NCBI GenBank assembly: GCA_016865015.1
Contig: CP018226.1
Location: 3,441,001 to 3,505,000, forward strand
Direction of reading: 5' to 3'
DNA from: Rhizobiales bacterium IMCC20636
GTDB lineage: Bacteria > Pseudomonadota > Alphaproteobacteria > Rhizobiales > GCA-2746425
Length of the DNA: 64,000 nucleotides
Made by a program: the position numbers and the translations under genes. Every line of letters begins with the position of its first letter. Position 1 is the first letter of the stretch. The notes beneath the pieces were generated by a model that saw only the letters and a program-made list of their open reading frames with translations, searched no databases and was not told the origin of the DNA. Shown one piece after another: positions 19,278-25,552 of this stretch.

Positions 19278-20360
19278 TTATCTCAGCTTCAAGGTAGACA
19301 GGCCAATCAGCGCCAGAACCACAGCGATAATCCAGAAACGGATCACAACCTGCGGCTCTGTCCATCCCAATTGTTCGAAATGGTGATGGATCGGTGCCAT
19401 GCGGAAGACCCGCTTGCCGGTCAGCTTGAAGGAGGCGACCTGAATGATCACTGACATGGCTTCCAGAACGAATAAGCCACCAATGATCGCCAGAACGATT
19501 TCGTGCTTGGTTGAGACAGCAATCGCGCCAAGCATACCACCCATTGCCAAGGATCCGGTGTCACCCATGAAGATGGCAGCCGGCGGTGCGTTGAACCATA
19601 GAAAGCCGAGACCGGCCCCAATCAACGCTCCGCACAGAACCGCCAATTCGCCTGATCCGAACACATGATGAATTTGCAAATAATCCGCAAACAGGGAGTT
19701 TCCGGACAGATAGGCAATGATGCCGAAACTGCCAGAAGCGATCATGACAGGCACAATTGCCAGACCATCCAGACCATCGGTCAAATTGACAGCATTGCCG
19801 GCTCCGACAATAACGCAAATTGAAAACGGAATGAAGAACCAGCCAAGATTCCAGATCAGATCCTTGAAGAACGGGAATGTCAGCGAACTTGAAAATGGCT
19901 GCTCGCCGATTGTCATGACCGCATAACCGGCCAGCCCGGCAATAATAACCTCAAGTGTCAATCTGGCTTTACCGGAGAACCCCTTGTGGGACGCCTGCGT
20001 GACCTTCAGATAATCATCATAGAAGCCGATGGCCCCAAACGCGATCGTCACCAGAAGCACAATCCAGACATAAGGGCTTGAAAGATTGGCCCAAAGCAGC
20101 GCGCTGCTGATCAATGCCAAAAGAATAATCAATCCGCCCATGGTTGGCGTGCCCTGTTTTACCATGTGGGTCATGGGGCCATCGGAACGGATGGGCTGTC
20201 CCTTGCCCTGACGGCTGCGCAGCCAGTTGATGATCAGGGGACCGAACAGGAACACCAGCAGCATTGCGGTCATCATGGCACCGCCGGTGCGCACGGTTAT
20301 GTAACGGAACAGATTGAAGACCGGGAGCACTTCCGCAGTCTGACTCAGAAAATAAAGCAT
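19278..20360 (-). CDS. mraY: Phospho-MurNAc-pentapeptide transferase MraY
   Basis: MraY transfers phospho-MurNAc-pentapeptide to undecaprenyl phosphate, forming lipid I. The 360-residue integral membrane protein has about ten helices and the family motifs [11 protein letters not shown] near 70, [11 protein letters not shown] near 115 (catalytic Asp pair), [13 protein letters not shown] near 190 and the His-rich [14 protein letters not shown] near 325. It begins six bases after the murE/murF fusion stop. Confidence 0.98.
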
Positions 20361-20366
20361 TGGTAA

Positions 20367-23366
20367 CTACGCGCCCTCAAATGTTTCTGCATCTATCGCC
20401 TGTTCTGGAACAGCACCAGATGCGAATGTCTCTATCGGCGCGTGAATGCGCTCAAGGGTTTGTACCAAACCACTCATTGCCATGCCCAGGGACCCCTTCA
20501 CCATGACCACATCACCACGAGATATCTCGGCCAGAAGCGGTGCCATCAGATCGCGTGAGGTTGCTGCATAGACGGCGCGCCGCTCTTCCGGGAGCAACTC
20601 CCACAAGGCTGCCATCTGAGGGCCACAAAGCAGAACACGATCAATATCGGTCTGTTCAATTGCTGCGCTCAATTCTGCATGAAGATGCGGCGCATCATGT
20701 CCCAGTTCCAACATATCGCCCAACACCACAATCTTGCGACCTTTGGTCTGCAGATCCCCCAACATGCCGATGGAAGCCGCCATGCTGGCGGGGTTGGCAT
20801 TATAGCTTTCATCAATCAATGTGTAACTGCCTGCCTGCAAGGCCAGTGTTTCCCTGGCTCCACGTCCGCTCATCAGTTTGAACCCTGACAGTGCATTTGC
20901 CACCAGATCAACATTGGCCCCCAATGCGTCAGCGGTTGCCAGAACGGCCATGGTGTTTTCAGCAAGATACCGACCGCTGGTTGGCATGGCGAAGGTCAGT
21001 TCATGGCCTGAAATATTTGCAGCAACAATCGAGCCTGTCTCTGACAGGACAAAATCCACCAACCTTGCTTCCGCCTCAGCTCCCAGACCAAAGCCGATCA
21101 CACGTCCGGCCCAGGCTTTCTCGGCTTCACCCTTGAGGAAACCAAAATAGGAATTGTCACTGTTCAAAATGACGGTTCCACCAGATTCCAGACCGGCGAA
21201 TATCTCCGCTTTTGCTGCTGCGATGCCGTCAATACTGTCAAAAAACTCAAGATGAACCGGGGCAATGGTCGTGATGATAGCCACATGGGGGCGTACCAAT
21301 TTGACCAATGGCTCAATTTCGCCCGCGTGGTTCATGCCAATTTCAAAGACACCATATTCCACATCCAGCGGCATGCGCGCCAGTGACAGCGGAACACCCC
21401 AATGATTGTTGAAACTCTTGATCGACGCGTGCACGCGCCCTTCGGCTGACAGACCTGTGGCCAGCAGTTCCTTGGTACTCGTCTTGCCGACGCTGCCAGT
21501 CACTGCGATGATACGGGCTTCCGTACGTGCCCGGGCTGCCATGCCCAGTTTCTGAAGCGCGCGCAAAACATCTGCCACCACCAAAAATGGACCTGCAGTA
21601 CGTCCGAGAGCGGGAAGCTTGTCTTCGCTGACAATTGCCAGAGAAGCGCCTTGCCGGAATGATTTTGTAACAAAATCATGGCCATCAAAATTATCGCCCT
21701 TGATGGCAAAGAACAGATCACCTGGCTGTGTGGTGCGGCTGTCGATCGAAACCCCATAGACAGCTTTTGGCTGGGAGCCAAACAGACGACCACCCATGGC
21801 CGCTTCCAGTTCCGCGAAGGTCCAAAGCGGTGGCCCCTGCGGGGAAACCCGTTCCTCTGTTGTGGCATTCCGATTTGATTTGCGCTCTACAAGCGCCTTG
21901 GCAATTTCCTCGTGATCAGAAAATGGCAGCACTGTATCGCCGATGATCTGACCCTTTTCATGGCCCTTGCCGGCGACAACAAGCACATCGTCGGTAGTCA
22001 TGATGGAAACGGCTCTTTGAATCGCCTCGCGACGATCTGCGATTTCTATTGCTCGTGGTGCTGCGGCCAAAATTTCGCTGCGGATCTGCGCCGGGTTCTC
22101 GCTGCGCGGATTATCATCGGTTACAATAACCAGATCTGCAATCTCTTGTGCCGCCGCGCCCATGAGTGGACGTTTGCCATGATCCCGGTCACCGCCAGCA
22201 CCGACAATCACCATCAAAAGACGCTTTGGATAGGGGCGCAACGCCTCAAGGGTGGACCGCAGCGCATCCGGTTTATGCGCATAATCGACAAAGATCTGTC
22301 CCGGCACGCCCTGCATGTTCACCGGTTCCAACCGACCGGACACACCTTTCAGTTTCTGCAGAGAATTCAAGACAGCATCCGGGTCCAGCTTGCATGAAAT
22401 GGCAAGACCTGCTGCCATCAGGGCGTTGTCCACCTGAAAGGCTCCCGGCAATGGCAGGGTCACCTGTTTGGTCTGGCCGAAAAACGCAACCGTCAATGCC
22501 TGTTGCGGCCCGTTCTTGCCGTCTTGAACGATGCGCTCTGTCAGCGCGATATCCTGACCCAACCGCATGACGCGCAATTGTGCGCTGTCCGCCAATTCTG
22601 CCGCTCTGTTGCCCCAGGGCGCATTGATATTCACCACAAAGGGCGCGCCTTTCGGCAACAGCTCTGTCGTAAGACGAGCTTTGGCGGCAAAATAATCTTC
22701 TTCGGTCGCATGGTAATCCATGTGGTCGCGGCCAAGGTTGGTAAACGCACCAGCCGTCAGACGAACGCCGTCAAGCCGATGCTGATCGAGCCCATGGCTG
22801 GAGGCTTCCAGAGCCACATGATTGACCCCCTCACGGGACAATCGATCCAATGTTCTGTGAAGCGAAACCGGATCAGGCGTTGTCAGACCACCATAGCTGA
22901 CTTGCCCGTCCACGATGACACCCAGGGTGCCAATACTGGCGGATCGCAAGCCGGCGCTTTGGAATATCTGCGCTGCGAAGTTTGCAACTGAGGTCTTTCC
23001 TGCTGTTCCGGTAATGGCAACAATTGTGTTGGGCTGCCGCGGAAAGAACCGGGCGGCCAGAAGCGCCAAGGCCCGACGCGGATTGTTGGAGCGAATATGT
23101 GGAACCGGCATGGTTGCCGGATCAATATCAACGCTGTCATCTGTCAGTACCGCCACGGCCCCTGCCTGAATGGCGTCGGCAATGAAGGCCGCACCATCTG
23201 TTTGCACCCCAGCCACGGCCACAAAGAGATTTCCGCGCTGAACTTTGCGACTGTCGGCACACAGGCCGGTAATCCGCAGTGTTTCCATATCCGGCGTCAG
23301 TTCGGCGCGGATCAATGCATCGCGGTCCGGTGCATCCAGTTTTAGCAAATCTCCAAGGCGCATCAT
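20367..23366 (-). CDS. murE/murF: Bifunctional MurE-MurF fusion (meso-DAP ligase and D-Ala-D-Ala ligase)
   Basis: One uninterrupted frame of 999 codons encodes two Mur ligases. Residues 1 to about 485 are MurE: ADSRKVQRGNLFVAV, ATP loop ITGTAGKTSVANF, FTNLGRDHMDYH, DYAHKPDAL, and the meso-diaminopimelate motif DDNPRSENP. A linker of about 20 residues (KSNRNATTEERVSPQGPP) leads into MurF from LWTFAELEAAMGG, with its own ATP loop VTGSVGKTSTKELL and the NPASMAASI region. Neither ATG, GTG nor TTG occurs in frame within the linker, so MurF can be made only as a fusion. The start at 23366 has an AGGA ribosome site; a longer frame to 23432 would overlap ftsI. MurE-MurF fusions are known elsewhere (e.g. 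Bordetella). Confidence 0.95.
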   Translation of the reverse strand: MMRLGDLLKLDAPDRDALIRAELTPDMETLRITGLCADSRKVQRGNLFVAVAGVQTDGAAFIADAIQAGAVAVLTDDSVDIDPATMPVPHIRSNNPRRALALLAARFFPRQPNTIVAITGTAGKTSVANFAAQIFQSAGLRSASIGTLGVIVDGQVSYGGLTTPDPVSLHRTLDRLSREGVNHVALEASSHGLDQHRLDGVRLTAGAFTNLGRDHMDYHATEEDYFAAKARLTTELLPKGAPFVVNINAPWGNRAAELADSAQLRVMRLGQDIALTERIVQDGKNGPQQALTVAFFGQTKQVTLPLPGAFQVDNALMAAGLAISCKLDPDAVLNSLQKLKGVSGRLEPVNMQGVPGQIFVDYAHKPDALRSTLEALRPYPKRLLMVIVGAGGDRDHGKRPLMGAAAQEIADLVIVTDDNPRSENPAQIRSEILAAAPRAIEIADRREAIQRAVSIMTTDDVLVVAGKGHEKGQIIGDTVLPFSDHEEIAKALVERKSNRNATTEERVSPQGPPLWTFAELEAAMGGRLFGSQPKAVYGVSIDSRTTQPGDLFFAIKGDNFDGHDFVTKSFRQGASLAIVSEDKLPALGRTAGPFLVVADVLRALQKLGMAARARTEARIIAVTGSVGKTSTKELLATGLSAEGRVHASIKSFNNHWGVPLSLARMPLDVEYGVFEIGMNHAGEIEPLVKLVRPHVAIITTIAPVHLEFFDSIDGIAAAKAEIFAGLESGGTVILNSDNSYFGFLKGEAEKAWAGRVIGFGLGAEAEARLVDFVLSETGSIVAANISGHELTFAMPTSGRYLAENTMAVLATADALGANVDLVANALSGFKLMSGRGARETLALQAGSYTLIDESYNANPASMAASIGMLGDLQTKGRKIVVLGDMLELGHDAPHLHAELSAAIEQTDIDRVLLCGPQMAALWELLPEERRAVYAATSRDLMAPLLAEISRGDVVMVKGSLGMAMSGLVQTLERIHAPIETFASGAVPEQAIDAETFEGA

Positions 23367-23382: not shown

Positions 23383-25134
23383 TTAGCGGGCGGGGCTTGG
23401 GACATCATATTGCGGGATGCCAAGTACAGCATCGTTTTCCATGCGCGGCATCACACCCAACATCGGCGCTGCGCGTTTCACAATGGCCGACAATGTCGGC
23501 GCAGCATTAAGACCGGCCGTCGCTCCAATTCCTTTTCTTTCAGATTTTGGCTCATCTATCACGACCAAGACCAGATATTTCGGGTCATCCATGGGAAATG
23601 CGGCTAAAAAAGAGTTGAAACGAACGGAAGACGAATATTTTCCGTCGACGACTTTTTCAGCGGTGCCTGTTTTCCCACCCAAACGATAGCCCTGAACTTC
23701 AGCGCGTCGACCAGACCCTTTCAGGACATTGAGACGCATCAGATACCGCATCTTATCGCTTGTTTCTTGCGAAACCACGCGTTTTGCGAGTTGATCGGCT
23801 TCCGCTTCACTGCGCGGAAAGAACGTCGGTGGAATAAGCTTGCCACCATTCACCAGAGCAGCTGCAGCAGCAGCTGTCTGCATGGGTGAAACTGAAATGC
23901 CGTGACCGAATGAAATGGTCATGGCGCTGATCTGGCTCCATTTGCTTGGGTATTGTGGATCGGCTGATTCGGGCAATTCGGTGTGCAGGCGATCCATCAG
24001 CCCCAGGCGCGACAGAAATTCCTTGTGGCCATCAATTCCCACTTCCAAAGCCATCTTTGCAGTGCCGATATTTGACGAGTAAATATAGACTTCGGGAACT
24101 GACAAAACGCGATGTTTACCGTGAAAATCATTGATGGTGTAACGCGACACGCGGATCGGACGACGGGCATCAAAGCTGTCATGAATAGAAACCTTGCCGC
24201 TGTCCAGAGCCATGGCTGTCGTGAAGGTCTTGAAGATGGACCCCATTTCGAAGACACCGGCAGTCGCCCGGTTCAACCGGTCTTTCTCCAGTGCCTGCGC
24301 TGGAATATTGGGATCATAATCCGGCTGTGACGACATGGCGATGACTTCGCCTGTATGAACATCGAGCACAATGCCAATCGCGGCAATGGCACGATAGCGT
24401 TCCATGGCCTTTGTCAATTCATCCCGCACGACATGCTGCACCCGGATATCCGTAGAGAGCTTCATGGGCTCCAGATTGCGTTCCATTTGCAATCCAGCTT
24501 CCTGCAGGGCGGACAGTCCCTGACCATCCATATATTTTTCGATACCGGCAATACCTTCATTGTCGATATTCACATGACCCAAAATATGGGAAGCGGTTTC
24601 ATGGCCGGGATAGAAACGGCGGTTCTCGCTGAGGAAACCAACGCCTGGCAAACCCATGCGATGGATCGCGCGCTGTTGTTCTTGCGTGATGGTCCGCTTC
24701 AGCCACATGAAGCCACGGTCGCTGCCAATGCGACTGCGGATGGAATCTGTATCCAGATCAGGAAAGACCGTTGCAAGCCCGTCAACAACTTCATCGGCAT
24801 CAAGAACGCGCCTTGGCTCGGCAAACATGGAAAAGGTTTTGACATCGGTGGCCAGAACTTCGCCATTGCGGTCCAGAAGATCAGGTCTTGCTGCAGAGAC
24901 ACCGCTTGATCCGTATGGGTTGCCTGAATCCAGCTCACCGAACATGGCAATTCCGGCAAGGCGCAACCCAATGATTGCGTAAATCGCCGCAAACAGACCC
25001 ATGGCCAGGAAAAGCCGCAACCTGGATTCATCACCCTTGGTGGCCGCAGTTCCCTTGAATCTGAAGTGCCGTTTGGCGGAGGTCAGAACCGACGCCTTCG
25101 CTTTTGCAGCGCCATATGTATCCGATAAAGCCAT
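23383..25134 (-). CDS. ftsI: Septal peptidoglycan transpeptidase FtsI (PBP3)
   Basis: FtsI is the monofunctional class B penicillin-binding protein that cross-links septal peptidoglycan together with FtsW. From the ATG at 25134 it has 583 residues: a cytoplasmic tail, one membrane helix (FLAMGLFAAIYAIIGLRLAG), a pedestal domain, and a transpeptidase domain with SxxK in EMGSIFKTF, SxN in IYSSNIGTAK and KTG in LGGKTGTAEK. The frame extends upstream to a TTG at 25155 inside ftsL, but ATG 25134 has GGAGG nine bases before it. It begins one base after the ftsL stop. Confidence 0.97.
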   Translation of the reverse strand: MALSDTYGAAKAKASVLTSAKRHFRFKGTAATKGDESRLRLFLAMGLFAAIYAIIGLRLAGIAMFGELDSGNPYGSSGVSAARPDLLDRNGEVLATDVKTFSMFAEPRRVLDADEVVDGLATVFPDLDTDSIRSRIGSDRGFMWLKRTITQEQQRAIHRMGLPGVGFLSENRRFYPGHETASHILGHVNIDNEGIAGIEKYMDGQGLSALQEAGLQMERNLEPMKLSTDIRVQHVVRDELTKAMERYRAIAAIGIVLDVHTGEVIAMSSQPDYDPNIPAQALEKDRLNRATAGVFEMGSIFKTFTTAMALDSGKVSIHDSFDARRPIRVSRYTINDFHGKHRVLSVPEVYIYSSNIGTAKMALEVGIDGHKEFLSRLGLMDRLHTELPESADPQYPSKWSQISAMTISFGHGISVSPMQTAAAAAALVNGGKLIPPTFFPRSEAEADQLAKRVVSQETSDKMRYLMRLNVLKGSGRRAEVQGYRLGGKTGTAEKVVDGKYSSSVRFNSFLAAFPMDDPKYLVLVVIDEPKSERKGIGATAGLNAAPTLSAIVKRAAPMLGVMPRMENDAVLGIPQYDVPSPAR

Positions 25135-25135
25135 G

Positions 25136-25552
25136 TCAGCGCACCTCCGAGCCAATCAGATCAGCCAGGCTGGGCTCACTGGTCTGGTTGATGAGTTTTG
25201 CCAATGTGTTGCTCTCATAGGTGTAGGAGAACGGTTTGCGTCGCGGCACGATAAGCGACATCGGGGATTTCTCGGGAATATGGTCCAGCAACACGATCTG
25301 ATGTGGAGCCAATGGCATCAGCGGCAGCACATCGACATTATTTTCCACCAAGGCCTGCAATCTGGACGGCTGGTTCAGCAGGCTCCACTGCGCCTTCAAT
25401 CGGGAAATATCTTCTTCAAGACCATCGATCTCGGACATCAGATCTCGGGCATCTTCTGTCGCCAGTTCAGCCTGATATTTGATCTTGTAGGTGACCGCGG
25501 CTCCAGCCACCATCATCAGGCAAAGAAACAAGGTCCAGGTATGGCGCAACAT
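25136..25552 (-). CDS. ftsL: Cell division protein FtsL
   Basis: FtsL is a small bitopic protein that forms the FtsQLB complex in the divisome. This 138-residue protein has a short N terminus, one membrane helix (TLFLCLMMVAGAAVTYKI), and a periplasmic coiled coil (ELATEDARDLMSEIDGLEE) followed by a less conserved tail. FtsL sequences are poorly conserved; the call rests on size, topology and position between rsmH and ftsI. The start has GAGG eight bases upstream. Confidence 0.88.
   Translation of the reverse strand: MLRHTWTLFLCLMMVAGAAVTYKIKYQAELATEDARDLMSEIDGLEEDISRLKAQWSLLNQPSRLQALVENNVDVLPLMPLAPHQIVLLDHIPEKSPMSLIVPRRKPFSYTYESNTLAKLINQTSEPSLADLIGSEVR

Follow-up and report, generated by a model that had tools for sequence, protein, structure and literature searches.

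The window considered here, a stretch of 64,000 nucleotides, holds on its minus strand one frame in which a MurE ligase is followed by a MurF ligase, and the locus raises the question of whether the two enzymes are really joined in one working polypeptide and, if so, how the joined gene arose. The frame runs from the ATG at 23366 to the TAG at 20369-20367, with 999 residues and no stop. Its continuity from MurE to MurF is as the original prediction, which named no strand, had described it; the assembly consists of one 4.79-Mb contig. A longer alternative start, the ATG at 23432, is also open and would give 1021 aa. However, an AGGAA element lies upstream of the ATG at 23366, both here and in the relatives L007, L008 and L009, and in the relative that is 79% identical the open frame starts two codons ahead of the matching position. 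The gene is packed tightly between two genes that we take, from recognition of their proteins, to be ftsI/PBP3-like and mraY-like (Table 1). In another genome, G014, a 1664-residue open frame was considered as a candidate FtsI-MurE-MurF triple fusion and rejected, the PBP-like protein of that locus (L011) lying in another frame.

Both halves of the protein are assigned to their enzyme families above the curated cut-offs of NCBIfam: residues 24-497 match the MurE models PRK00139.1-2 (736.8 bits, cut-off 476) and TIGR01085 (534.9 bits, cut-off 257.3), and residues 512-976 match the MurF models PRK14093 (665.8 bits, cut-off 544) and TIGR01143 (499.1 bits, cut-off 288.6). All three Mur ligase domain families of Pfam are found, each matched in two stretches of the fused protein. 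The equivalog model for the fusion, PRK11929 (NCBIfam NF008896), gives 861.1 bits, under its curated cut-off of 1023. When 12 fused proteins were compared, A122 was the sole exception to invariance within residues 119-126 of MurE, and the GKGHE stretch and the MurF motifs were likewise invariant; DNPR is shared by three aligned MurE chains (8g6p, 2wtz and 1e8c) and by 8f5d. The TGTAGKTS and TGSVGKT stretches are presumably the ATP-binding loops of the two enzymes, Lys229 is taken to correspond to the lysine that is carbamylated in Mur ligases, and DNPR is assumed to be the meso-DAP specificity motif.

Table 1. Coordinates, in the window, of the fused gene, its parts and its neighbours
Feature	Position	Strand	Description
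Fused murE-murF gene	20367..23366	-	999 codons + TAG; continuous frame, no internal stop
MurE part	21876..23366	-	residues 1-497; by family UDP-MurNAc-L-Ala-D-Glu:meso-DAP ligase
MurE TGTAGKTS loop	22989..23012	-	residues 119-126; T119, G120, T121, G123, K124, T125 and S126 invariant in 12 fused proteins
MurE Lys229	22680..22682	-	invariant in 12 fused proteins
MurE DNPR motif	22104..22115	-	residues 418-421; invariant in 12 fused proteins
Linker	21834..21881	-	residues 496-511; no ATG, GTG or TTG (codon listing); pLDDT <50 at 502-507
MurF part	20439..21833	-	residues 512-976; by family D-Ala-D-Ala-adding ligase
ATG of Met524	21795..21797	-	first in-frame start past the linker; judged non-functional
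MurF TGSVGKT loop	21480..21500	-	residues 623-629; T623, G624, S625, G627, K628 and T629 invariant in 12 fused proteins
C-terminal tail, variable	20370..20438	-	residues 977-999; pLDDT <50 at 983-999
ftsI/PBP3-like neighbour, upstream	23383..25155	-	ORF
mraY-like neighbour, downstream	19278..20360	-	ORF; ATG 6 bases past the stop codon of the fused gene

Comparison of coding sequences indicates that both halves are under purifying selection. Against L007 the dN/dS is 0.052 for MurE and 0.055 for MurF, and against L008 and L009 it is 0.047-0.072 for both ligase parts; these values are rough, because the dS of the ligase parts is near saturation (1.0-2.5 where computable) and the pair at 65% identity is saturated. 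The C-terminal tail varies within the genus and is modelled with low confidence, and for residues 972-999 four pairwise comparisons gave a dN/dS of 0.6-1.2. A search of the genome with Mur_ligase_M (E 0.001) returned five matches, namely the two halves, two further proteins of the cell-wall cluster, which we read as MurD and MurC, and one protein recognised as FolC-like, whose gene sits behind one recognised as AccD-like. None of the five is a second murE or murF, so that the cell would seem to rely on the fused gene for both essential steps.

The AlphaFold2 model, obtained with a 42-row alignment, has a mean pLDDT of 90.3 and a pTM of 0.67, and the latter means that the mutual orientation of the two enzymes is not predicted with confidence. 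It places a helix at residues 484-501 and a break at 502-507, and MurF is confident from about residue 512. Among PDB entries, 8f5d matches the whole chain best in both sequence and fold, with TM 0.36/0.45 and an rmsd of 19.2 Å at the low-confidence orientation of the model; single MurE or MurF structures were matched to their own halves, several with a target TM of 0.85-0.90 and others with about 0.6-0.75. The prediction can be read as a pair of rigid enzymes connected by a flexible hinge.

Thus, the single frame, the family matches, the motifs, the lack of a second copy, the conservation and the purifying selection together make a working bifunctional MurE-MurF ligase the most likely product, a prediction that we hold with high confidence. 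That the meso-DAP and D-Ala-D-Ala steps are joined in one polypeptide, as originally proposed, follows from the gene; kinetic coupling or substrate channelling between them would be hypothetical. The N-terminal enzyme would add meso-diaminopimelate to UDP-MurNAc-dipeptide, and the C-terminal enzyme, joined to it through some 10-20 flexible hinge residues, would next add D-Ala-D-Ala to yield UDP-MurNAc-pentapeptide. The fusion would set a 1:1 ratio of the two enzymes and may hold the two sites near each other.

The frequency of the fusion was estimated in genomes of at least 90% completeness, sampled from the order (397), the class (387) and the phylum (397). In the order, 45 of the 397 genomes have a single joined match with an E value of at most 1e-160, and the DNA of all 45 junctions divides them into 25 fused genes and 20 pairs with a stop between the genes; the 25 fall in four families, that of the window (f1), f11, f18 and f42. 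The class sample contains 25 joined matches at E 1e-150 among its 387 genomes (13 fused, 12 separate). Both 25/397 and 13/387 are lower bounds, since fusions with long linkers give two matches and escape the joined counts. When the fusion model NF008896 was applied to the phylum sample, 14 of the 397 genomes were joined among the matches listed and four of these were fused (two being G000 and G084 again), and only one of the 397 passes the cut-off of the model among those matches. Fifteen fused genes occur in the best 80 contig loci retrieved with the fused query, a choice that favours fused genes. Judged from these sequences, the MurE-MurF fusion is uncommon in the order but not isolated. The earlier view that such fusions are not standard in Alphaproteobacteria is sound as a statement on the majority, at least 25 of 397 genomes being fused in the order and at least 13 of 387 in the class, but it fails if taken to mean that they are absent, as Pseudovibrio and further lineages have them. 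Among 102 representatives with separate genes, 61 have an overlap of the ATGA type, GTG and TTG forms included, 35 have the two genes in frame with a stop between them, and six use the remaining frame.

MurE-MurF fusions were published earlier in other bacteria, and the window gene joins this already known kind. The consulted sections of PMC6420597 describe the two enzymes as a single polypeptide in Bordetella, Pseudovibrio and Desulfobulbus/Desulfobacula, the latter termed archaea in that paper. For the B. pertussis fusion they report a linker of about 20 residues, a protein that is elongated, flexible and able to dimerise, measured activities for both reactions and active sites modelled about 35 Å apart, which bears out the original mention of Bordetella. 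Fusions in a number of proteobacteria and in Bacteroidetes are noted in the consulted part of PMC4929429, the fusion is mentioned in the discussion of Mur ligase evolution in that of PMC11915815, and 8f5d is tabulated under MurF, without an organism, in that of PMC12844806. The title of 8f5d reads “Architecture of the MurE-MurF ligase bacterial cell wall biosynthesis complex”, and we infer that it is the Bordetella protein. The literature search found no paper on gene fusion in the dcw cluster of Alphaproteobacteria.

The B. pertussis protein and 8f5d have MurE and then MurF in one chain, as does the window protein, but 8f5d and the window protein share 33% identity over the structural match and the whole model does not superpose on 8f5d. 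Pseudovibrio (L097) likewise has an alphaproteobacterial MurE-MurF fusion; however, its linker is acidic, with a net charge of -46, and 169 residues long as against 16 in the window protein by an equal measure, and its position in the tree is apart from the genus of the window. In-frame fusions like that of the window, whose linkers measure 6 to 25 residues, are found in f11 (which includes the contigs of Chthonobacter, L060, and Pleomorphomonas, L062, with the same sequences as G147 and G342), in f18, in f42 and in Rhodoblastus sphagnicola (L073), but these are about 50% identical to the window protein, have other linkers and are separated from it on the tree by unfused rows. Most sampled relatives in the order have a separate murE and murF of the same enzyme families, with murE before murF and 46-57% identity (15 pairs aligned); they differ from the window in having two genes, mostly with a 4-nt overlap (61/102).

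Some linkers seen during these comparisons are unusual. Besides that of L097, which comes from Pseudovibrio exalbescens and in which Pfam matched only Mur ligase domains, long ones of 260 and 235 residues occur in the MAG SP118 (L115) and in genome G044 (L194/L028), with net charges of -81 and -66, and all three are rich in Ala, Glu and Asp. Four fusions of the class family f110 (L141, L143, L145 and L147) have 3 residues between the aligned enzyme ends. In the Rhodoblastus MAG SSC7 (L077, match from 4001) the murE frame stays open into the region of MurF homology before a stop ends it, possibly an intermediate state or an error; L073 is fully fused.

A FastTree phylogeny was built from 149 rows, 46 fused and 103 separate, leaving out L013, L028, L081, L083 and L161, which are short, and the loci above L165; L077 was treated as separate in the tree and excluded from the count of 102, and L079 has an ambiguous base in its junction. 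The tree needs at least 15 changes between the fused and the separate state, or 13, 12 and 9 when forks with support below 80, 95 and 99 are collapsed; the changes are 12, 11 and 8 without the four outgroup rows, and 10 when L079 is also dropped and forks below 95 are collapsed. Recurrent fusion is likely on this sequence-based evidence, and is not graded as proven because 39 forks of the tree are open, some long branches meet, its rows are query-biased and the counts are blind to gain versus loss. The genus of the window forms a clade of its own (support 100) amid unfused rows, and is placed with unfused Rhizobiaceae, Phyllobacteriaceae and Brucellaceae rows and G046.

The fusion might instead date back to an ancient ancestor that was already fused, or have spread by transfer of a fused gene, as its scattering across the class and the equal treatment of gain and loss in the counts would allow; we consider this rather improbable, since the genus sits with unfused rows, though the deeper fork has a support of only 91, and since the linkers of separate fused lineages range from 3 to 260 residues and differ in sequence. 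Under a fusion made in this lineage, the ancestor of the genus would have lost the overlapping murE stop and murF start (ATGA), with an in-frame spacer in their place. More broadly, Alphaproteobacteria may have converged repeatedly on this fusion, joining adjacent or overlapping genes on many occasions and retaining the product under selection, with linkers from 3 to 169-260 residues and with tethering repeatedly beneficial, a proposal that in our judgement could fall either way.

Between MurE and MurF lie about 16-20 residues, and the claim that a linker of some 20 residues is devoid of in-frame ATG, GTG and TTG agrees with the codon listing for the window genome; in other members of the genus it differs, L008 having a GTG and L010 (65% identical) a GTG with a TTG just upstream of it. 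Residues 493-512 contain no indel in any of the five genomes of the genus, yet are only 25-45% identical to those of the window genome, and the linker has a dN/dS of 0.49 in the single computable pair. The first in-frame start 3′ of the linker, the ATG of Met524, is ten residues into MurF. One fused frame could still give two proteins, through internal initiation, for example at this ATG, or through cleavage in the disordered linker; the codon of residue 524 is ATG in four of the five genus members and TTG in the fifth, and the low model confidence of the linker was also counted for this explanation. However, the column of Met524 is variable in fused and unfused MurF alike (Met, Thr, Leu, Ala and others) and Met is common in the unfused enzymes (33 of 103 separate rows), which argues against a conserved start at this ATG. 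Moreover, translation beginning at Met524 would lose Leu514-Trp515, residues found in the fused rows of the tree in 42/46 (Leu) and 44/46 (Trp) cases, and none of the linker start codons is conserved across the genus. An internal start at Met524 is unlikely, and the formation of two proteins by either route is very improbable; a single polypeptide with both sites active is probably what is made. No promoter-like site was found within the murE-murF junction. Two terminator-like sites occur at the junction against 0.3 expected, one per strand and each with a 5-pair stem containing 3 G-C pairs; that on the coding strand (21942-21927) falls within the end of MurE and is presumably due to chance.

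The fused frame is present in all five genomes of the family (one genus as sampled), with open frames taken from the assemblies as given, and the window protein shares 88, 87, 79 and 65% identity with its counterparts in the remaining four; comparison of the murE/murF boundary with these close relatives, which had been called for at the outset, revealed an equal frame and gene layout in all four. The fusion is also present in L059 and L066, public contigs of the MAGs Alphaproteobacteria bacterium bin.12 and Hyphomicrobiales bacterium NORP22; over the matched stretches of both enzymes their sequences equal those of L007 and L010, so neither counts as an independent case. A sequencing or assembly error at 21830-21900 that merged two truly overlapping genes, as a small error could do where the murE stop and the murF start overlap in different frames (61 of the 102 separate representatives), can be dismissed almost entirely, because the four congeners have an open frame and an identical linker length despite many sequence differences, and because the junction spacing of 60 nt, against mostly 23 or 26 nt in overlapping relatives by an equal measure, would not be explained by a single-base error. 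The missing or extra base once feared at the boundary is excluded by the four congeners, and the MurE-MurF fusion is confirmed as real and common to the relatives of the organism.

The anomaly flagged at this locus is resolved as a real gene and not a sequencing error. Its interest is modest for the window gene and somewhat greater for the scattered fusions and the long acidic linkers: fusions occur in more alphaproteobacterial lineages than are named in the consulted parts of PMC6420597, PMC4929429 and PMC11915815. The natural linkers, from 3 to 260 residues, and the unfused close relatives are material at hand for asking whether tethering benefits Mur ligases and, if the fusion is indeed recurrent and convergent, the benefit of tethering would be testable with natural linker-length variants.
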